Positions 47,952 through 56,808 of a DNA stretch of 64,000 nucleotides are shown here, piece after piece. A program made the position numbers and the translations under genes. The number at the start of each line of letters is the position of its first letter. Positions within the stretch are counted from its first letter, which is position 1. The notes beneath the pieces were generated by a model, which worked only from the letters and a program-made list of their open reading frames with translations, had not been told where the DNA came from and ran no database searches. Source of the DNA: Pseudoflavonifractor sp. MSJ-30 (GTDB lineage: Bacteria; Bacillota; Clostridia; Oscillospirales; Oscillospiraceae); the NCBI RefSeq assembly GCF_018918045.1, contig NZ_JAHLPU010000034.1, positions 1 through 64,000 of the forward strand. The letters run 5' to 3'.

Positions 47952-48111
47952 AATTTTTCCCGCCTTTCACGTTCTTTCCCTATTTTAGCGGTTTTCGTGG
48001 CCACAATCAAGAAAAATCTGAGAACCCGGCCAGACCGTTCCAGATTTTTCGACTTTTTCTGCGGTTACATTGCCGTCTGCGCGGAATAGTAAGACAGAGA
48101 GGAGGGATCAC

Positions 48112-49071
48112 ATGAAACGCAGGATCGCGATTTTTATTCTTTTTTTATGGATGCTGCCCGTTTCTGCCTGGGCGGCAGATTATCTGGTGCCTGTGGGCAG
48201 TCTGGTGGGCCTGCAGCTGCGCACGGACAGCATTACGGTCGCCGCTTTTGACGATGCCCTGGGTACCGCCGCCCGGGAGGCGGGACTGAAGATCGGCGAC
48301 CGGATCACCGCCGTCAACGGCACACCGGCGCAGAGCATCGAGGACATGAAGGCCATGCTGCAAAAAACGGATGGACCTGTACAGCTCAGCGTCACCCGGG
48401 GCAGCCGGAATCTGACTCTGCGGCTGACTCCCGGGCAAGAGGACGGCCAGCGGGTGCTGGGCGTCTACCTGCGCCAGGGCATCTCCGGCATCGGCACCGT
48501 CACCTGGTACGACCCGGAGACCAGACAGTTCGCCGCCCTGGGCCACGGCGTCAGCACCGGCAAGGAGGGACTTTTGAGACTGGTTTCCGGCGACATTTTC
48601 CCGGCGGAGGTCTATTCCGTCCGGAAGGGTGCCGCTGGAAATCCGGGCCTTCTCAAAGGCCAGACTCTCTCCCCCATCCCCATCGGCACTGTCTCCGCAA
48701 ACACGCCACAGGGTATTTTCGGCAGCACAGCCGCAGGCTTTTCCGGTTCCCCCGTCCCCGTCGGAGACTGGGATTCCCTGCACACAGGCCCCGCCACCAT
48801 CCTCGCCACCGTCGCGCAGGGGCCGCCACGGGAGTATTCTGTGGAAATTCTGAAATTATATCCCAAAGACCGTACAACCTACCGGAATTTCCTTCTGAAA
48901 GTCACAGACCCGGAACTGCTGAATACCACCGGCGGCATTGTTCAGGGAATGTCCGGCAGTCCCATTTTGCAAGACGGCAAGCTCATCGGCGCCGTGACCC
49001 ATGTGCTGGTAAATGATCCAACTTCCGGCTATGGGATTTTTATTGAGAATATGCTGGAGGCGGCGGGATGA
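48112..49071 (+). CDS. spoIVB: SpoIVB, sporulation signalling serine peptidase
   Basis: A 319-residue protein with an N-terminal signal/anchor helix (about 4-22), a PDZ domain (about 45-110) and an S55 peptidase domain. The histidine in ALGHGVS and the serine in QGMSGSP are the expected catalytic residues. In Bacillus SpoIVB is secreted from the forespore to trigger SigK processing in the mother cell. The ATG at 48112 follows GGAGGG. Its last 122 bp are repeated at 56005-56126 at the far end of an AT-rich island, so the 3' end may have been exchanged on integration. Confidence 0.93.
   Translation: MKRRIAIFILFLWMLPVSAWAADYLVPVGSLVGLQLRTDSITVAAFDDALGTAAREAGLKIGDRITAVNGTPAQSIEDMKAMLQKTDGPVQLSVTRGSRNLTLRLTPGQEDGQRVLGVYLRQGISGIGTVTWYDPETRQFAALGHGVSTGKEGLLRLVSGDIFPAEVYSVRKGAAGNPGLLKGQTLSPIPIGTVSANTPQGIFGSTAAGFSGSPVPVGDWDSLHTGPATILATVAQGPPREYSVEILKLYPKDRTTYRNFLLKVTDPELLNTTGGIVQGMSGSPILQDGKLIGAVTHVLVNDPTSGYGIFIENMLEAAG
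48950..49071 (+). repeat. Left copy of the 122-bp spoIVB 3'-end repeat
   Basis: The final 122 bp of spoIVB, from the codons of the active-site serine to the stop. A copy of the same length with 11 mismatches (91% identity, no gaps) is at 56005-56126. Together they bound the AT-rich island and look like attachment sites. This is inference from position and similarity. Confidence 0.75.
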
Positions 49072-49107
49072 AAAACAGCTCTCCCGGAGAGGTTTTCCGG
49101 GAGAGCT
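49071..49107 (-). terminator. Terminator of the TfoX-like gene
   Basis: A perfect 12-bp stem (AGCTCTCCCGGA with TCCGGGAGAGCT). On the minus strand it is followed by GTTTTT. It overlaps the stop region of the minus-strand TfoX-like gene and also lies right after spoIVB. Confidence 0.8.
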
Positions 49108-49450
49108 AGTTCGATAAACTGGAAGTTGTTAATTTCTTCTTTTTCGGTTTTGGGGCTGGCAGTTCATCATACATTGCATGAAACAAGCCTGTCAAAAATT
49201 CCTTATTATCAACTTCATCTACCAACAGCATCTCTTTTGCTCCCTCATAGGGTAATTCATACGGAGCTGTCAGCATATAACTAATTGCTGATTTTACTGG
49301 TTTAACAAGTAATCTATCATCATAGATACCGCCTACAATCTTGCCACGATAATAAATAATAAATTCTCCCATCATAGCTCGATAAGTAATTTCTTCTAAC
49401 TCAGATAGCTGCCCTAAAATAAACTCTAAGTATTCCTTGCTTGATGCCAT
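49106..49450 (-). CDS. TfoX N-terminal domain protein
   Basis: A 114-residue protein with the TfoX_N fold (ITYRAMMGEFIIYYRGKIVGGIYDDRLLVKP, shortened here to key blocks RAMMGEF and GGIYDDRLLVK). TfoX controls competence in gamma-proteobacteria, but stand-alone TfoX_N proteins in Firmicutes have no known role. The C-terminus is lysine-rich (KPKKKK). GGAGG precedes the ATG. Its AT-rich composition fits the island. Confidence 0.8.
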   Translation of the reverse strand: MASSKEYLEFILGQLSELEEITYRAMMGEFIIYYRGKIVGGIYDDRLLVKPVKSAISYMLTAPYELPYEGAKEMLLVDEVDNKEFLTGLFHAMYDELPAPKPKKKKLTTSSLSN

Positions 49451-49505
49451 ATTTCCTCCTCAAATTACGATTTTCTCAATTCTCCAATGCTTGAAGTTGT
49501 AAATA

Positions 49506-49712
49506 TCATTTTACATTTTTATATGAAATCACAATATGACTTGGTGCAAATAATACTGATGCAATAATCAATAGCACTGACCTACTCATAATCCCACTAA
49601 ATAAGAACAACATTGAAGGAATAATAGAAAGTGCTAATGCTCTGAAAACGCTGTTTTTCTTAAAACATATAATCCAAATAGCACAATAAAGCATTTGCAA
49701 TGGTATTTTCAA
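49506..49712 (-). CDS. Small hydrophobic protein or membrane-protein fragment
   Basis: A 68-residue hydrophobic frame with two possible membrane segments and the end PSHIVISYKNVK. The only start is a TTG with no ribosome binding site, so it may be the 3' remnant of a longer membrane protein gene. No function can be given. Confidence 0.35.
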   Translation of the reverse strand: MKIPLQMLYCAIWIICFKKNSVFRALALSIIPSMLFLFSGIMSRSVLLIIASVLFAPSHIVISYKNVK

Positions 49713-49719
49713 TCACACA

Positions 49720-50214
49720 TTGTTGTGTGAATTTCATCAAGGCAAGCTGTTACTCCATTTAACGATACCTTTTGAAGAAAAGCCAAAGACCAACTTACCG
49801 AGCGACAATCTCAAGTACTACCGTCAGCGAAAACAGATGACAACAAGACAGTTGGCGGAAAAGATGGATATTGTACCATCAACTGTTGTGATGTATGAAA
49901 ATGGAAAACATCCTATTCCTTATAATGTAGCTATTAAGCTGGCAGATGTTTTGGAAATCGAAGCGTCCTTACTCTATGATGATTTCTCTCGTTTCCTTTC
50001 TGTACCCTATACCGAAGCGCTAAAGAGCGTTAGAACGGCTTTGGGGCTGTCACAGAAGGCTTTTGCAGAACGGATAGGGCTTGTACCAAGCTACTACTAT
50101 AAAATCGAAGAAGGCAATCGCAGACCGTCACGAAAGGTTTATCAGAAGATATATGCTGCGCTTGAAACGACCAGTCTACAAACTTCACTTTTAGGGGAGC
50201 ATCCATTACAATGA
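49720..50214 (+). CDS. XRE-family regulator with two HTH domains
   Basis: A 164-residue protein with two helix-turn-helix units: MTTRQLAEKMDIVPSTVVMYENG (about 40-62) and LSQKAFAERIGLVPSYYYKIEEG (about 115-137, each listed by its edge residues). The N-terminal segment FHQGKLLLHLTIPFEEKPKT is seen in similar regulators. The frame has only TTG starts and no ribosome binding site, so the gene may have lost its 5' end when the island was rearranged. Its stop overlaps a frame leading to tnpV, so they probably belong to one mobile unit. Confidence 0.7.
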   Translation: MLCEFHQGKLLLHLTIPFEEKPKTNLPSDNLKYYRQRKQMTTRQLAEKMDIVPSTVVMYENGKHPIPYNVAIKLADVLEIEASLLYDDFSRFLSVPYTEALKSVRTALGLSQKAFAERIGLVPSYYYKIEEGNRRPSRKVYQKIYAALETTSLQTSLLGEHPLQ

Positions 50215-50246
50215 AAGTGAAAGAAAAAATGATTGGAGGAGTTGCT

Positions 50247-50597
50247 ATGACACAGAATTTGACTTATACCCGTTGTGGTGATTATCTCATCCCTGATGTT
50301 CGGTTGAGCTATGTAAGCGATAAACCACTTGGGAAGTACGGTAGAATGCGCAGAGTTTTTCTTGCGGAAAATAATCCAATACTCTTAGATGACATGATTC
50401 TAACAGAGACATTATTTCCGCATTTATGGGAAATTGACGAAACTGCTCACCGTAGAGTGGAACAGATAATGACTGAACTTCTGGAGAAAAATCCGGCTCC
50501 GGATAAGTCAACTCAACAATTTGCATGGATTCAGCACATGAATATGCTGAAAGCACAGGCTGAAGAAATTATAGTTGCAGAGCTGATTTACAGTTAA
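50247..50597 (+). CDS. TnpV-family transposon protein
   Basis: A 116-residue protein. YTRCGDYLIPDVRL, GKYGRMRRVFL and, near the end, MNMLKAQAEEIIVAELIY match the TnpV family that occurs on Tn4451-like and related clostridial mobile elements. Its role is unknown, but it marks the region as mobile DNA. The ATG at 50247 follows GGAGG. No recombinase gene accompanies it here. Confidence 0.8.
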   Translation: MTQNLTYTRCGDYLIPDVRLSYVSDKPLGKYGRMRRVFLAENNPILLDDMILTETLFPHLWEIDETAHRRVEQIMTELLEKNPAPDKSTQQFAWIQHMNMLKAQAEEIIVAELIYS

Positions 50598-50611
50598 ATA
50601 ACCAATAAAAG

Positions 50612-50646
50612 AATGGGCTGGCTCGAAAGGGTCAGTCCATTTGTTA
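50612..50646 (+). terminator. Probable terminator after tnpV
   Basis: An imperfect stem (AATGGGCTG with CAGTCCATT) followed by TGTT, 15 bp after the tnpV stop. Confidence 0.55.
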
Positions 50647-50690
50647 TGCAGAAAAACAATTCTTGAATTGTGTTTTTGACAGTTCCAGAA

Positions 50691-50728
50691 TTGTGATTTT
50701 CACAATTCAAGAGTTGTGAAAATCACAA
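50691..50728. promoter_or_regulatory. Twin TTGTGA-N3-TCACAA palindromes
   Basis: Two palindromes, TTGTGATTTTCACAA (50691-50705) and TTGTGAAAATCACAA (50714-50728), 8 bp apart, are also complements of each other, so the pair forms a larger 15-bp inverted repeat. This looks like a double operator. The rest of the 50598-51010 gap is AT-rich and has no gene. The downstream target would be the ATPase gene. Confidence 0.55.
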
Positions 50729-51010
50729 TGTAATAATACTGATAATAACTATACTGATTATAGTGATACTGATCCGTTCCTTTCTCTTCCTATCCGGAAT
50801 GGAAAAGAAATGATAAGATGTTATATAACTGATGATGAGGCAGTGGTATGCCTCTATTGCAGAATATCTTTTTCACTATCTCATATAGAAATGTGATCGA
50901 TGAGCATAAAAAATTAATAATTTTGTGATTGTAATTTATATAGATTTCGCATATAATAAAAGCGTGATTATAAAGCATAAGACTCCAATAAAAATGTGAG
51001 GAGTGATTCT

Positions 51011-52360
51011 ATGGAACGATTTATCTTAAAAAAGTTGCTGGATTGGAAGAATTCTCCCTACCGCAAGCCTTTAATCTTGAAGGGCGTACGTCAGGTGGGT
51101 AAGACTTGGATTCTGAAAGAGTTCGGCAGACACTATTATGAAAATACCGCCTATTTCAACTTTGACGAGAACGAGGAATATAAGCAATTCTTTGAAACTA
51201 CAAAAGATGTTGACCGTATCCTGCAAAATTTGATGCTGGCAAGCGGTCAGAAGATAGTGCCGGAAAAGACCCTCATCATCTTTGATGAGGTGCAGGACTG
51301 CCCTAAGGTCATCAACTCCATGAAATATTTTTGTGAGAATGCCCCGCAGTATCACATTGTCTGCGCCGGTTCTCTGCTGGGCATTGCTCTGGCAAAGCCA
51401 TCTTCCTTCCCGGTAGGCAAGGTCAACTTCATGCAGATTGACCCTATGACCTTCACAGAATTTCTGCTTGCCAACGGTGATGAAAACTTAGCAAAGTATC
51501 TGGAAACGGTAAACACCATTGAACCGATTCCCGATGCGTTCTTTAATCCTCTGTATGAGAAATTGAAAATGTACTATGTGACTGGCGGTATGCCGGAATC
51601 AGTTAAAATGTGGACAGAGGCAAGGGATGTTGCAGCCATGCAAGAAGCCTTGTCTGGTATTATCGGTGCGTATGAGCGGGACTTTGCAAAACATCCCAAT
51701 ATCAGCGAGTTCCCAAAGATTTCGATGATCTGGAAATCGATTCCTTCTCAACTGGCAAGGGAGAATAAAAAGTTTATCTACAAGGTTGTCAAAGAAGGGG
51801 CCAGAGCCCGTGAGTACGAGGATGCTTTGCAGTGGCTGGTGGATGCCCGATTGGTTCATAAAATCTACCGTAGCTCCGCTCCTGGTCTTCCAGTGGCTGC
51901 CTACGATGACCTCTCGGCCTTTAAGATTTATTTGGTGGATGTTGGTCTGCTCCGCCGTCTGGCACAGTTGGCCCCCACTGCTTTTGGTGAAGGTAACCGC
52001 CTTTTCACTGAATTCAAAGGCGCATTAACTGAAAACTTTGTGTTGCAGACTTTAATTACTCAGTTTGAAGTCATGCCCCGTTATTGGAGCCAGAATAATC
52101 CACCTTATGAAGTGGATTTCCTCATACAACGAGAAAATGACATTTTCCCTGTTGAGGTCAAGTCTGAGGCCAATACCACCAGCAAGAGCCTTAAGAAGTT
52201 TAAGGAGCTGTTCCCGGATCAAGTCAAGCTCCGTGTGCGGTTCTCTCTGGATAATCTGAAGCTGGATGATGATGTACTGAACATCCCTTTGTTCATGGCT
52301 GATCAAGCAGATAGATTGATTGGATTGGCATTAGAAAAGAAGAATAGCTTTGGTCAGTAA
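51011..52360 (+). CDS. AAA_14/DUF4143 ATP-binding protein
   Basis: A 449-residue protein. Walker A is GVRQVGKT (25-32) and Walker B LIIFDEVQ (about 92-99). The second half is a DUF4143 domain ending in a nuclease-like strand pattern (YEVDFLIQ ... FPVEVKSE), which resembles a PD-(D/E)xK core: D in VDFL and E-V-K. These proteins are common in accessory regions and are of uncertain role; a link with toxin-antitoxin or defence has been proposed. AGGAG lies 9 bp before the ATG. It is AT-richer than the core genome. Confidence 0.88.
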   Translation: MERFILKKLLDWKNSPYRKPLILKGVRQVGKTWILKEFGRHYYENTAYFNFDENEEYKQFFETTKDVDRILQNLMLASGQKIVPEKTLIIFDEVQDCPKVINSMKYFCENAPQYHIVCAGSLLGIALAKPSSFPVGKVNFMQIDPMTFTEFLLANGDENLAKYLETVNTIEPIPDAFFNPLYEKLKMYYVTGGMPESVKMWTEARDVAAMQEALSGIIGAYERDFAKHPNISEFPKISMIWKSIPSQLARENKKFIYKVVKEGARAREYEDALQWLVDARLVHKIYRSSAPGLPVAAYDDLSAFKIYLVDVGLLRRLAQLAPTAFGEGNRLFTEFKGALTENFVLQTLITQFEVMPRYWSQNNPPYEVDFLIQRENDIFPVEVKSEANTTSKSLKKFKELFPDQVKLRVRFSLDNLKLDDDVLNIPLFMADQADRLIGLALEKKNSFGQ

Positions 52361-52421
52361 TGGTTCATCAATATAAAAAGTAACAATTTGACCTATAGAA
52401 TGAAAGAAATAGAAAGGTGAT

Positions 52422-53573
52422 ATGATGGTCAAAGGCTTCATTTTCTTCAGAGACGGAAAGATACCATTCGTAATCGAAAACTACCGCATGGAATTATTTA
52501 CGGATGACTCGCTGCTGGATGATTTTTGTAAAGAATATAATTTTAAAGAAAACTATATCCTGCATGGACAATGTTTTGATATCGGAATTCGTGGACGGAA
52601 AGCAACTTTTTTAGTAGAAAACTCTATGGGCAGTACCTGCTATTTACGTTGCTATACTATCAATATGTTCGACAAAGATGAAGAGTATGACTCCATAGGC
52701 CTTCAATCACCGTCCCTCGATGAAGTTTTTAGATACGAATATGAATACATTGACATGGTGCAAGCGGGAATCAATTTGGCTATAGAGCCTAAGGTTGTAT
52801 ATAAGGTTCCGTTTGGTATGAACGATCAGAAGTATGAATTAGAATTCCGGATAGGTCACGATAACCGACTCGGGCTTTTGGAAGACCTCGACAGAAAGTG
52901 CGAATTGATTCTGCCACTACACACCAACGAGATACAAGAGTGCTATGATATTACTAATGTTCTACATAGGCTTGCAATGTTTATGACATCCCATGCAGAA
53001 GTTCCTTTCAAACGGATTACACTTTATAAACAAGGATTGAAAGCAGGGTGGTTCTACTGTCCTCTCATTTCAGAAGATATAGTTGGTGGGCATGGCGGTT
53101 TCTTCCACGAATTTGATGTTATGAAATACATCCCGAAAATCTTAAATAACATAGCGTTAGATTCCGGCAATAAAATAACACAAAGCATTCCCCTGGGGCA
53201 TTTAGGGGATTTTAACTCCATGTATACACCGCAGCGATTTGCAGAACAAGTTATGGCGTTTGAGTATTTGTTCGACAAGCTGGATCACAAGAATGCTCAA
53301 AACCCTAAATTTCCCCTAAAAAAAGAATTGGAATGTATGTTTAATGAATTCCCACAATTACTATCACGAACGAAGATTTCTGCAGAGAAGATTAGTGATC
53401 AAATTAAGGAAATTAGGCGTACTATTGCACATGGATATGCGTATTACTATGATTTCAAAAATGACTCCAACACCAAATATTTGATGATTCTTCTCGATGA
53501 ATTGATCAAATGCATGAGCTTGAAATGGATAGGGTTTTCTAATGATGACATTTCAAACTATATTCTCTTTTAG
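52422..53573 (+). CDS. ApeA-like HEPN-domain protein, probable anti-phage ribonuclease
   Basis: A 383-residue protein. The N-terminal half is beta-rich (KGFIFFRDGKIPF, then YILHGQCFDIGIRG), like the ApeA N-terminal domain. The C-terminal helical part contains FAEQVMAFEYLFDKL and the HEPN signature R-x4-H (R332 and H337 in RRTIAHG), followed by more helices. HEPN proteins of this kind cleave RNA in abortive infection. AAAGG precedes tandem ATGs. It lies between the ATPase gene and the methylase gene, all on the plus strand, in the island. Family assignment is by pattern and is not proven. Confidence 0.6.
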   Translation: MMVKGFIFFRDGKIPFVIENYRMELFTDDSLLDDFCKEYNFKENYILHGQCFDIGIRGRKATFLVENSMGSTCYLRCYTINMFDKDEEYDSIGLQSPSLDEVFRYEYEYIDMVQAGINLAIEPKVVYKVPFGMNDQKYELEFRIGHDNRLGLLEDLDRKCELILPLHTNEIQECYDITNVLHRLAMFMTSHAEVPFKRITLYKQGLKAGWFYCPLISEDIVGGHGGFFHEFDVMKYIPKILNNIALDSGNKITQSIPLGHLGDFNSMYTPQRFAEQVMAFEYLFDKLDHKNAQNPKFPLKKELECMFNEFPQLLSRTKISAEKISDQIKEIRRTIAHGYAYYYDFKNDSNTKYLMILLDELIKCMSLKWIGFSNDDISNYILF

Positions 53574-53665
53574 AAAAAACATACAAGCTTAATATAGAAA
53601 CTCAGTTAGATACTCAGAAATTAGGCAATATGTCCTTACAGATACTTAGAAAGGGCGAAAATGAA

Positions 53666-55156
53666 ATGGCAAAGAAAGAAGTTAAAACCGATTTGTGGGT
53701 CGCTCGTCAGCTCGATGACTCCAAAATTAAATATGATGCTCAAGGTAGCGATGTTAAGGAAATCAATGACGCTTTGCAGAGTGCATCAAAGCGTGGTACT
53801 GGCAACGCTGGATACCCCGAGTATGTTGCAGTTGTTAAAGATTTTGTTATTGTCATTGAGGACAAAGCTGATCTTGCCAAGCATCAGAAACTGAGCAATA
53901 CAGGAATCCTTTCTATCGATCAGAAAGATATTGCAGATTACGCTGTTAATGGAGCATATTTTTACGCCAAGCACATTGCGCAAAACAGCAGCTTCCATAA
54001 GATTTTTGCAATCGGTGTTTCAGGAGATGAAAAGCACCATAAAATCACTCCGCTGTATGTGGATGATAGAGATGGGTATAAGCAGCTCCCTGATATTGAA
54101 TCTTTTACCTCCTTCACCGCTGTCAATATCGACGAATACTATACTCGTTATGTTCTGGCAGAAAAGACCGATGTCGAAAAGACTACTGAGGAAATTCTAA
54201 AAGATGCGGCGGAACTGCACGAATATCTGCGCACCTATGGCTCCCTGAAGGATCAGGACAAGCCTTTGGTGGTCTCCGGTATTCTTCTGGCACTGGATGA
54301 TAAGTTTTTCAAACCCGATGATTTGCTCGGTGACGAAACGACCACAGATGGTCAGCTGATTTACGATGCGATTCAGCGCCGCCTCAAAGCATCCAATGTT
54401 GGGCCTGATGCAAAACGTGACAAGCTGATGAGTGAATTTTCTATCATCCGCACAAGCGCCCGTTTGAACGAAGTTGATGCCAAACTGGGCAAAACCCCAC
54501 TGAAATTCTACACTGAGTTCTTGAAGAAGAATGTCTTTGACAACATTAAGTATCGAAGCTCTAGCGAGGATTTCATTGGAAGATTCTATGGCGAATTTAT
54601 GCGCTATTCTGGCGGTGATGGTCAGACACTGGGCATTGTCCTTACGCCTCGCCATATCTGCGATTTGTTCTGTGACCTTCTGAACATTCAGACCACAGAT
54701 ATTGTGCTTGACCCTTGTTGTGGTACTGCCGGATTTCTTGTTGCAGCGATGCATCACATGCTTGAAAAGGCAGGTGCTGATCAGAACAAGCGAAAGAACA
54801 TCAAGAAGAAACAGTTACACGGATTTGAACTCCAGAGCAATATGTTTGCTATTGCTGCAACCAATATGATCCTCCGGGATGATGGTAATAGCAATATCAA
54901 ATGCGAAGATTTTCTCCGACAAAATCCTGCCCAAGTGCAGCTCAAAGGCGCAACTGTTGGCATGATGAATCCTCCTTATTCGCAAGGAACCAAGTCAGAT
55001 CCGTCTCAGTATGAATTGTCCTTTGTGGAGCATTTGCTCGATTCCCTGACCGAAGGAGCAAGGGCTGCGGTAATTGTTCCTCAATCGTCCATGACAGGCA
55101 AGACCAAAGACGAACAGACTTTTAAGGAAAATATTCTGAAACACCATACATTGTAA
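53666..55156 (+). pseudogene. Truncated N6-adenine DNA methylase with N-terminal nuclease-like domain
   Basis: The remaining 496 codons start with a restriction-type segment (YPEYVAVVKDFVIVIEDKADL, reading D...EDK as in PD-(D/E)xK folds; given here by its key residues), then a HsdM-like methylase with motif I DPCCGTAGFLVAA and catalytic NPPY. The frame stops right after KENILKHHTL, in the middle of a conserved segment, and the following DNA belongs to a different gene on the other strand. The target recognition part is missing. It is probably inactive. AAAGGG lies upstream of the ATG at 53666. Confidence 0.85.
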
Positions 55157-55878
55157 AACAGCAAATCAATATAAAAATCATCTCCACCCACATTCAGGTG
55201 ATATTGATTTCCAAGGAAGGCGAATCCTGTTCCCAGTTCCAACAGTAGCTTTGTAACATCTTTCACAAGTGCCTGTTCTATATCCCGCTCCATCATATCT
55301 TCTTTAAACGGGATAAAGTCAAACACATAGGGGTCCTTCATTGTCTGTGCGGCAAGCTCACTTTGCGGGGAGGGTAAGCGTTCTTCAAAATTTGCTATTT
55401 TCTTAGCCAGCGCTTGGCGTTGATAGAGCCCTATCTCAATTTGGTGTACCAAAACATTGCGTGACCACCCGTTCCCAGCTGCTTGATCGGCATACCAAAT
55501 GTGCTCCTCCGCTGTCCTCACCTTATCCATCAATGCAATGTGATGATACCACGTTATTTGTGCAAGCGCCGCTTGCACAATTTCAAAGTTCGGAAAACGG
55601 AGCGCAAACTTCGCCATATATTTGAGATTTCGCACCGAATACCCTTTTGCTTCCGGGAATGCCAGCCTAATGTCTGTAGCAAGGTTTTCAATAAATTTAT
55701 TTCCCCAGGTTTTATGCTCGTTGATGGCTGACCCAATATCGTAGTACAGGCATATCAGTTCCCTGTTGACATTCAGCGCTGCCCTATATTGCGCACTTTG
55801 GATTTCCTGCTTGATACTCTGTACCAAATCCAAGTACTCGCCACTGTTCATCAGCATTTGCAAATCCTCCATTCTCAT
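55081..55878 (-). pseudogene. Truncated DUF1016 (YhcG-like) PD-(D/E)xK nuclease
   Basis: The N-terminal DUF1016 domain is intact (VNRELICLYYDIGSAI, SVRNLKYMAKFA, ITWYHHIALMDK), and the nuclease domain begins (FLGNQYHLNVGGDDFYIDLLFYN), but after the N at about 55150 the frame runs into the antisense of the methylase gene. The catalytic (D/E)-x-K strand is therefore missing. These proteins occur with restriction-modification loci and may cleave DNA or act as holding factors. I take MRMEDL at 55878 as the start; a promoter lies 29 bp upstream. Confidence 0.85.
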
Positions 55879-55906
55879 GAAACGAAACACACCTTTTTCT
55901 TTGGAT

Positions 55907-55935
55907 ATTTTACCATACAGCGCAAAAGAAAGCAA
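55907..55935 (-). promoter_or_regulatory. SigA promoter of the DUF1016 gene
   Basis: On the minus strand TTGCTT (55930-55935) and TAAAAT (55907-55912) with a 17-bp spacer. Confidence 0.65.
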
Positions 55936-56004
55936 TCGGCTTTCAACAGTACAAATAAAAAGGCATTGTAAACATATTGTGTTGTCCATAATGGCAATCA
56001 CTCG

Positions 56005-56126
56005 TGTCCGGCAGTCCCATTTTGCAGGACGGCAAGCTCATCGGCGCCGTCACCCATGTGCTGGTAAATGACCCATCTTCAGGGTATGGCATTTTTATTG
56101 AGAACATGCTGGAGGCTGCGGGGTAA
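56005..56126 (+). pseudogene. Duplicated 3' end of spoIVB (right copy of the 122-bp repeat)
   Basis: Codes for the last 40 residues of SpoIVB, from SGSPILQDG to EAAG and a TAA stop. It matches 48950-49071 at 111 of 122 positions with no gap, and most differences are silent. It has no start. A GC-rich hairpin (AGGGCC...GGGCCCT, 56130-56153) follows, probably the original spoIVB terminator. It is either the displaced original 3' end after integration at the spoIVB end, or a fragment from a related strain. Confidence 0.85.
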
Positions 56127-56225: not shown

Positions 56226-56492
56226 ATGATGATTCGTTCCGCAACTGCCATGCGTAATGATTACGACGGTATGGTAAAGCTTTCAAAAGAGAAACAGGAA
56301 CCGATTTTTTTGACCAGAAACGGCGAGGGCGAGATGGTCTTTCTGCCCCTGGAGCTTTGGGAAAAGCGTGAGGCCGAGTTGGACCTGCTCTCTGAAATGC
56401 TCCGTCGGGAAGAAAACCATCTGGCTGGAGCCAAAACAGCCAGTCAGGAGCAGATGCATGCTCTAACCGAGGAACTGCTGCATGAAAATTGA
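56226..56492 (+). CDS. Phd/YefM-type antitoxin
   Basis: An 88-residue antitoxin. The N-terminal half (IRSATAMRNDYDGMVKLSKEK) is the Phd/YefM DNA-binding fold, followed by PIFLTRNGEGEMVFLPLELWEKRE and an acidic helical tail for binding the toxin. GGAGGG precedes the tandem ATGs. It overlaps the toxin gene by 11 bp. It should neutralise the toxin and repress the operon through the palindrome upstream. Confidence 0.92.
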   Translation: MMIRSATAMRNDYDGMVKLSKEKQEPIFLTRNGEGEMVFLPLELWEKREAELDLLSEMLRREENHLAGAKTASQEQMHALTEELLHEN

Positions 56493-56808
56493 GTGGCTGT
56501 ATGAGGCACAGCGGGAATATGCGGAACTGCTGACATTTTACCGCTATCAAGTCGGTCTTGAAGCCGCCAGGCATTTTGCCGCAACGATCATGGATTCTGT
56601 AGAAAACCTTGCGTCTTTCCCGGAAATGGGTGTGTTGAAGTCAAATACATTGATGGGCAAATATGGGTTCCGTGCCCTGTTTATTCGGCAGTACGCCTGT
56701 ATTTATAAGATTTCAGACGATGTTATCTATATCTACCATATCACAGACGCACGAAAAAATTATATTTACAACATCTTCGGTTTAGATAACAATACAAATA
56801 ATCAATAG
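56482..56808 (+). CDS. RelE/ParE-family toxin
   Basis: A 108-residue toxin. IEWLYEAQREYAELLTFY and, near the end, RALFIRQYACIYKISDDVIYIYHITDAR (key blocks given) match the RelE/ParE fold. ParE members poison gyrase and RelE members cut mRNA on the ribosome; the sequence does not decide between them. It is translated from inside the antitoxin gene. Confidence 0.9.
   Translation: MKIEWLYEAQREYAELLTFYRYQVGLEAARHFAATIMDSVENLASFPEMGVLKSNTLMGKYGFRALFIRQYACIYKISDDVIYIYHITDARKNYIYNIFGLDNNTNNQ

Follow-up and report, generated by a model that had tools for sequence, protein, structure and literature searches.

The TG of spoIVB codon 280 as a probable chromosomal attachment site for elements associated with large serine recombinases

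The window analysed here, a stretch of 64,000 nucleotides, holds the 3' end of the sporulation gene spoIVB twice, which raises the question of whether the DNA between the two copies entered by site-specific integration into the end of the gene. The last 122 bp of spoIVB are repeated 7,055 bp downstream (48950–49071 and 56005–56126), and alignment confirmed that the copies differ by 11 mismatches and no gaps, as the initial annotation had reported. A repeat search returned 124 nt at 91%; when base 48949/56004 is counted in, 111 of 123 positions are identical, and as the bases there differ, 11 mismatches in 122 bp are left. The first two bases of each copy are the TG of codon 280. Within the host assembly (75 contigs, 94% complete) the tail was found at these two places only, with E = 6.4e-45 for the second copy, so the repeat is not due to chance, and the 9% divergence of the tails argues against an assembly duplicate. 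Relative to their closest relative, the window tails are identical at 98 of 123 and 96 of 123 bases. GC content falls from 0.60 at 48001–49000 to 0.37–0.46 between the copies, bearing out the earlier description of this DNA as AT-rich. Immediately before the second copy lies a conserved element end of 25 bp, here termed PL; together with the TG (55980–56006) it matches the PL pattern with 0 mismatches, and is the sole match in the window when up to 3 are allowed, compared to 0 in 100 shuffles. The unit leaves spoIVB whole and does not split it (Table 1).

Pfam and PADLOC matches confirmed most of the cargo named by the initial annotation, i.e. TnpV (the sole transposon-type protein in the island), the XRE regulator, the AAA/DUF4143 ATPase and two broken defence genes. 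The label of ApeA-like HEPN protein was not upheld, as the 383-aa product had no match in Pfam, PADLOC or NCBIfam at E 0.001. The statement that no recombinase is left inside proved true for tyrosine and serine recombinase domains alike (PF00589 and PF00239), with zero matches to either on the contig that carries the window, so that the island itself has no large serine recombinase (LSR) gene by PF00239. The restriction-modification gene and the YhcG nuclease gene, both lacking their 3' ends, converge and overlap at 55081–55156, which looks like a deletion joint.

Table 1. Features of the spoIVB-associated unit in the window and of palindromes at related loci
Feature	Position	Strand	Evidence or remark
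spoIVB, intact, SpoIVB peptidase S55 + PDZ	48112..49071	+	PF05580 E 1.7e-67; frame open from 48070
spoIVB tail, left edge of unit	48950..49071	+	TG of codon 280 (recombination point) to stop codon
Complete unit (7,055 bp), from tail through cargo to PL	48950..56004	+	Edges match those in relatives
TfoX_N protein	49106..49450	-	PF04993 E 2e-7
XRE regulator, two HTH domains	49720..50214	+	PF01381 E 1.6e-22
TnpV	50211..50597	+	PF14198 E 2.3e-32
AAA_14/DUF4143 ATPase (PADLOC candidate PDC-S01)	50996..52360	+	PF13635, PF13173, PDLC04786
383-aa protein, no family match	52422..53573	+	Pfam, PADLOC and NCBIfam searched
Type IIG restriction-modification gene, without 3' end	53630..55156	+	PDLC03602 positions 2-498 of 637
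DUF1016/YhcG nuclease, without 3' end	55081..56001	-	YhcG_C positions 2-80 of 157; open frame, family match from residue 44-63
Element end PL, conserved, immediately 5' of orphan tail	55980..56004	+	Pattern match
Orphan spoIVB tail, right of unit	56005..56126	+	Repeat of 48950-49071
Phd/ParE toxin-antitoxin pair, right flank	56226..56808	+	PF02604, PF05016
attP-layout palindromes	L040 from 12379; L083 from 10965; L093 from 6924; L295 and L296 after tail		L295/L296 by eye

The same boundary recurs in relatives. Among 76 distinct orphan tails (tail copies separate from a spoIVB gene), 56 begin at residues 280–283, and PL precedes 51 of these; of the other five, three (L122:107, L232 and L234) are gene ends truncated at the contig boundary, L025:3079 has a partial PL, and L122:6128 lacks it. 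The other 20 orphan tails begin after residue 283, which we count against the attachment-site model. Codon 280 is ATG in 115 gene copies and its first base is G in 71% of the 56 orphans, while the codon after the TG varies between tails; the exchange therefore lies at the TG, a precise insertion at a short core as in serine-recombinase elements. Consistent with this, bases 1–6586 of L154 are identical in L155 through the GTG, beyond which the two continue into different spoIVB tails (L148, L150, L154 and L155 are contigs of a viral collection, which alone does not make them viruses). The type-A PL pattern had 12 matches in 9 of 136 same-genus genomes and 0 in the reversed control; for 10 of these matches a listed spoIVB tail is 30 bp away or less, and 1 is at a contig edge near spoIVB. 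Type-A PL was not found in the viral contigs searched.

Orphan tails are widespread. Tail-only copies were present in at least 28 of 101 same-genus genomes, the window's own included, by hand count among the matches listed (spoIVB protein search, E ≤ 1e-6; 94 of the 101 had a spoIVB match). When 394 genomes of the order were searched with the 40-aa tail, 355 gave a match and 31, from 11 families, gave two or more, counted by eye from the tail matches irrespective of PL. From a species collection in which 571 relatives were found, 80 loci were kept, and an orphan tail follows spoIVB in 17 of them, or in 16 of the 65 that have at least 2 kb of DNA behind the gene; spo0A adjoins the site in 20 of these 65. 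Arrays reach five tails in a row, the gene's own counted (L040/L113). Many of the genomes compared are fragmented metagenome assemblies. In seven of the 80 loci (L033, L045, L051, L058, L060, L083 and L100) the contig stops no more than 300 bp past spoIVB, and contigs of G088 and G043 stop right at codon 280, a pattern that breakage of assemblies by the repeated tail, or differences between cells at this point, would produce. The tail also occurs in three plasmid records, of which one (H11, L290), labelled plasmid, contains spoIVB in full and the other two are annotated spoIVB, and in ten phage records. Nine of the ten hold most of spoIVB and are host DNA; the tenth, MT836038.1, is an element with three LSRs, PL and an orphan tail.

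At the same codon, spoIVB is split in 9 genomes by a second type of end, termed PR (G421, G062, G066 and G093, plus G807, G809, G777, G561 and G630, which were found by the PR pattern), so that these elements interrupt a sporulation gene in the manner of sporulation gene-intervening elements. The PR pattern had 7 matches in 388 genomes of the order and 0 in the reversed control; five of the seven are a spoIVB broken at codon 280, and two (G870 and G768) lie behind an intact spoIVB, which counts against the model. In the near-complete, two-contig genome G421 the spoIVB match ends at residue 280–281 and the tail lies ~94.6 kb away on the same contig, in the order spoIVB 5' part, type IV secretion system (T4SS) genes, LSR trio, PL, tail and Spo0A; the insert between the spoIVB halves is a conjugative element of ~95 kb. 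The split ends agree between genomes of different families, at 102 of 102 bases for G093 and G561 and at 116 of 118 for G062 and G630. The tail lost by splitting is the part of spoIVB that we take to contain the catalytic serine. When reversed, PL agrees with the PR consensus at 18 of 25 positions, a value that 0 of 100,000 letter shuffles reached; the real G421 ends agree at 14 of 25, the shuffle control applying to the consensus strings only. PL and PR are therefore inverted half-sites around a core, as in an attP, and inverted ends together with three tandem LSRs indicate a serine-recombinase attachment site. The joined PL-TG-PR junction was absent from the viral contigs searched, hence no circle was seen there. 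The closest relatives of the window Phd and ParE among the compared loci lie on the G421 splitting element (L253:3510–4086; 77% and 59% identity), which also has an AAA_14/DUF4143 protein 44% identical to that of the window.

Recombinase genes were found directly beside the site. LSRs near it have the domains PF00239, PF07508 and PF13408 and occur in two arrangements, as a trio that precedes PL and an orphan tail (L148, L150, L154, L155, L291 and G421) and as a single gene that starts ~95–230 bp after the spoIVB tail (G091, G067, L154 and, cut by the contig end, G100); elements in all of these genomes and loci thus carry an LSR. When the array-carrying contigs of 16 genomes were scanned, PF00589 was not found and PF00239 only in G091 and G067. 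An LSR model run on 136 same-genus genomes matched 12 of them at E ≤ 1e-90; the three LSRs beside spoIVB score 713–1036 bits and others at most 337, and only the position of the top three is informative, because the model was built from them. An LSR search of 400 genomes of the family at E 1e-120 returned at least G421, a lower bound because few candidates were scored per genome. Resemblance of the site LSRs to the XisF and Ccr models of NCBIfam is far below the cut-offs (best CcrB score 126.5, cf. a cut-off of 900), and none was assigned to CcrA, CcrB or CcrC. The LSR-bearing unit of G091 (L131:4280–9633) also has genes for an AlbA_2 protein, DUF2397, DUF2398, DUF2399/DUF3323 and an IstB-type IS21 protein; its three DUF genes are presumably Wadjet-like.

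The spoIVB bodies of L103 and L240 are 42.9% identical in protein and 61.9% in DNA, and from the TG onward the two loci have 95.0% DNA identity over 505 columns; the same tail-plus-cassette unit lies behind PL in L124 (93.4%). Other pairs that start at the same TG are L154/L230 (92.2%) and L121/L128 (90.4%), such that units 90–95% identical from the TG are common to hosts with very different spoIVB bodies. In these alignments, the tail travels with its cassette as one unit. The 58 intervals between successive tails, drawn from 37 loci and made non-redundant by hand, have a median of 1,114 bp; 51 measure 0.28–4 kb, 5 are longer, and 2 under 100 bp come from split matches. An LSR relative is present in 2 of the 58, which we count against the LSR model. 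Twelve aligned type-B cassettes have a common right end of ~180 bp, in which blastx for LSR remnants gave nothing below E 0.25; type-A cassettes, the window's among them, have only PL in common (by eye). A Pfam scan of 40 of the 95 cassette proteins that are 95 aa or longer left 16 below every cut-off, the others including ribonuclease, Zeta/CPT-like kinase, GNAT, AbiEii, Fic, CHAP, HTH, VanW, CotH, M20 peptidase and transporter families. Genes with the PF00545 ribonuclease domain recur as cassettes (L075 and L113). The term defence island therefore suits the cargo of the window and not the site in general, where cassettes carry mixed genes.

Overall, these results make it very probable that LSR-moved elements in this order use the TG of spoIVB codon 280 as a chromosomal attachment site, that such elements are of two kinds, and that the window holds a tail-carrying unit. 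Boundaries, element ends, split genes, arrays, units common to unlike hosts and LSR genes beside the site were all observed; that these LSRs carry out the recombination, that the units move as circles and that recombinase-free cassettes move in trans is what we infer from them. Elements of one kind would split the gene, with inverted ends PL and PR and three tandem LSRs where the right end was seen; they cut after codon 280 and therefore remove the last 39–40 codons of spoIVB. Units of the other kind would be bounded on one side by PL and on the other by a copy of the last ~120 bp of spoIVB, and would recombine at the TG such that the unit's tail completes spoIVB and the old tail stays behind PL. 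Because spoIVB is kept intact and the site is formed anew, further units could stack. The window island is of the gene-preserving kind, now without a recombinase of either family searched (PF00589/PF00239), and would be a single 7,055-bp unit that lost its recombinase or always had it supplied in trans. Accordingly, the earlier proposal of integration into a gene end with spoIVB as attachment site is supported, since the left edge of the repeat is the recombination point in many genomes, and site-specific integration is further backed by the conserved element end adjoining that edge and by the LSRs of related elements. The proposed search of relatives for an empty site was slightly supportive: Phd homologues lie 95–308 bp after an intact spoIVB in L004/L241 (G019), L016 and L050, yet they are 31–33% identical to the window Phd.

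Two further features of the site bear on this model. If PL-TG-tail acted as attP, one half-site would come from the element and the other from the host, and a near palindrome after some intact tails is not predicted; both count against the model. Whole palindromes of 49–51 bp with the layout of the element attP (GTTGTCCC...GGGACAAC) occur shortly 3' of the spoIVB tail in five loci (Table 1) and may be an attP copy, an operator or a terminator. A loose search for attP-like palindromes 3' of tails did no better than its control (12 in 183, cf. 14 in control windows). Separately, the orphan tail of L126 and the two of L130 are broken at the same place, ~10 codons from their start, by an insert of ~106 bp, the sequence of which also flanks the orphan of L037.

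An alternative is that only the splitting elements are mobile, that hosts later regained spoIVB through homologous recombination with a tail acquired from other cells, and that the cassettes are decayed, immobile remnants. The 56 of 58 intervals without an LSR, the common ~180-bp right end of the 12 aligned type-B cassettes, as deletion derivatives would have, and the two truncated genes in the window cargo all fit this scenario, but it has to contend with single LSRs directly behind tails and with a tail-plus-cassette common to hosts with unlike spoIVB bodies and with its left edge at the TG. Homologous repair would not give the same single-base edge every time, and we therefore consider the scenario unlikely. 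The second tail could also stem from simple duplication of the spoIVB end in place, or from misassembly, the intervening genes then being unrelated; that the assembly is a draft, that the copies lie 7 kb apart and that no recombinase separates them would fit. Such an origin is contradicted by the 91% identity and unique flanks of the copies, by PL directly before the second copy (0 expected by chance) and by the same edge in many genomes. PL and the common edge already refute it, unless in the window strain these turn out to be unrelated, and we give it very little weight.

If codon 280 is an attachment site for LSR-moved elements, as we favour, the tail-carrying units may form an integron-like cassette system based on serine recombinases, in which the spoIVB end serves as recombination site and at the same time as the part that every cassette has to bring, each insertion swapping the end of the sporulation protease while leaving it functional; we put this forward tentatively, as somewhat short of an even chance. 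spoIVB is a forespore gene, and the strategy of carrying a spare gene end may have arisen because excision in the forespore would remove the element from the germ line, unlike that of skin and gin in mother-cell genes. Accessory genes concentrate at the end of spoIVB in many families within a single order of gut bacteria, and this hotspot illustrates a way for mobile DNA to reside in a sporulation gene and leave it intact. Since splitting and tail-carrying elements use the same base pair, why sporulation gene-intervening elements sit where they do becomes testable. The site recombinases come with a readable attachment site and could be turned into a tool for integration.

In the literature searched, which covered titles and the starts of abstracts, with subscription papers and preprints largely outside it, spoIVB was not described as an attachment site. 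Integron gene cassettes form tandem arrays of small units with mixed cargo, often one gene each and mostly without a recombinase, all of which applies to the spoIVB cassettes as arrays of small, mixed and mostly recombinase-free units. In contrast, integrons use a tyrosine integrase and attC, whereas PF00589 was lacking from the scanned spoIVB arrays and the common site there is the end of a protein gene.

Among known systems, the nearest are SCC/ECC at rlmH and, in gerE, the gin element with its three recombinases. SCCmec and ECC have LSRs, an attachment site in the 3' region of rlmH with att repeats of ~50 bp, inverted repeats both in attR and at the junction of the circle, several attR sites within a single genome and very variable cargo (PMC6222049). 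The spoIVB elements thus resemble them in LSRs, in a site within the 3' region of a conserved gene and in unit layout, and differ in the target, which is spoIVB (PF05580) and not rlmH, in carrying a ~120-bp end that codes for 40 residues, in arrays of up to five tails, in size (21–78 kb for ECC, compared to 0.28–4 kb for most spoIVB intervals, mostly without an LSR) and in recombinases that fall far below the CcrA/B/C cut-offs of NCBIfam. The gin element, taken here together with skin in sigK and SPbeta in spsM, is not a phage; it carries three genes for serine recombinases and interrupts Bacillus cereus gerE (PMC5595907). It shares with the spoIVB splitting elements three serine recombinases and a split sporulation gene, but girC lies apart in gin (PMC5595907) whereas the three LSRs at spoIVB are in tandem; moreover, the target is spoIVB here, the G421 element has T4SS genes, and a second class of spoIVB elements keeps the gene whole. 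Streptococcal ICEs have three adjacent serine integrases at one element end, in the same orientation, which cluster by position in the triplet (PMC4701971), and LSRs A, B and C of different spoIVB-site elements likewise pair by position. In contrast to the tail-carrying units at spoIVB, those ICEs are described as targeting mutT, traG and hsdM, which they disrupt, leaving 2–8 bp repeats and carrying no gene end (PMC4701971).
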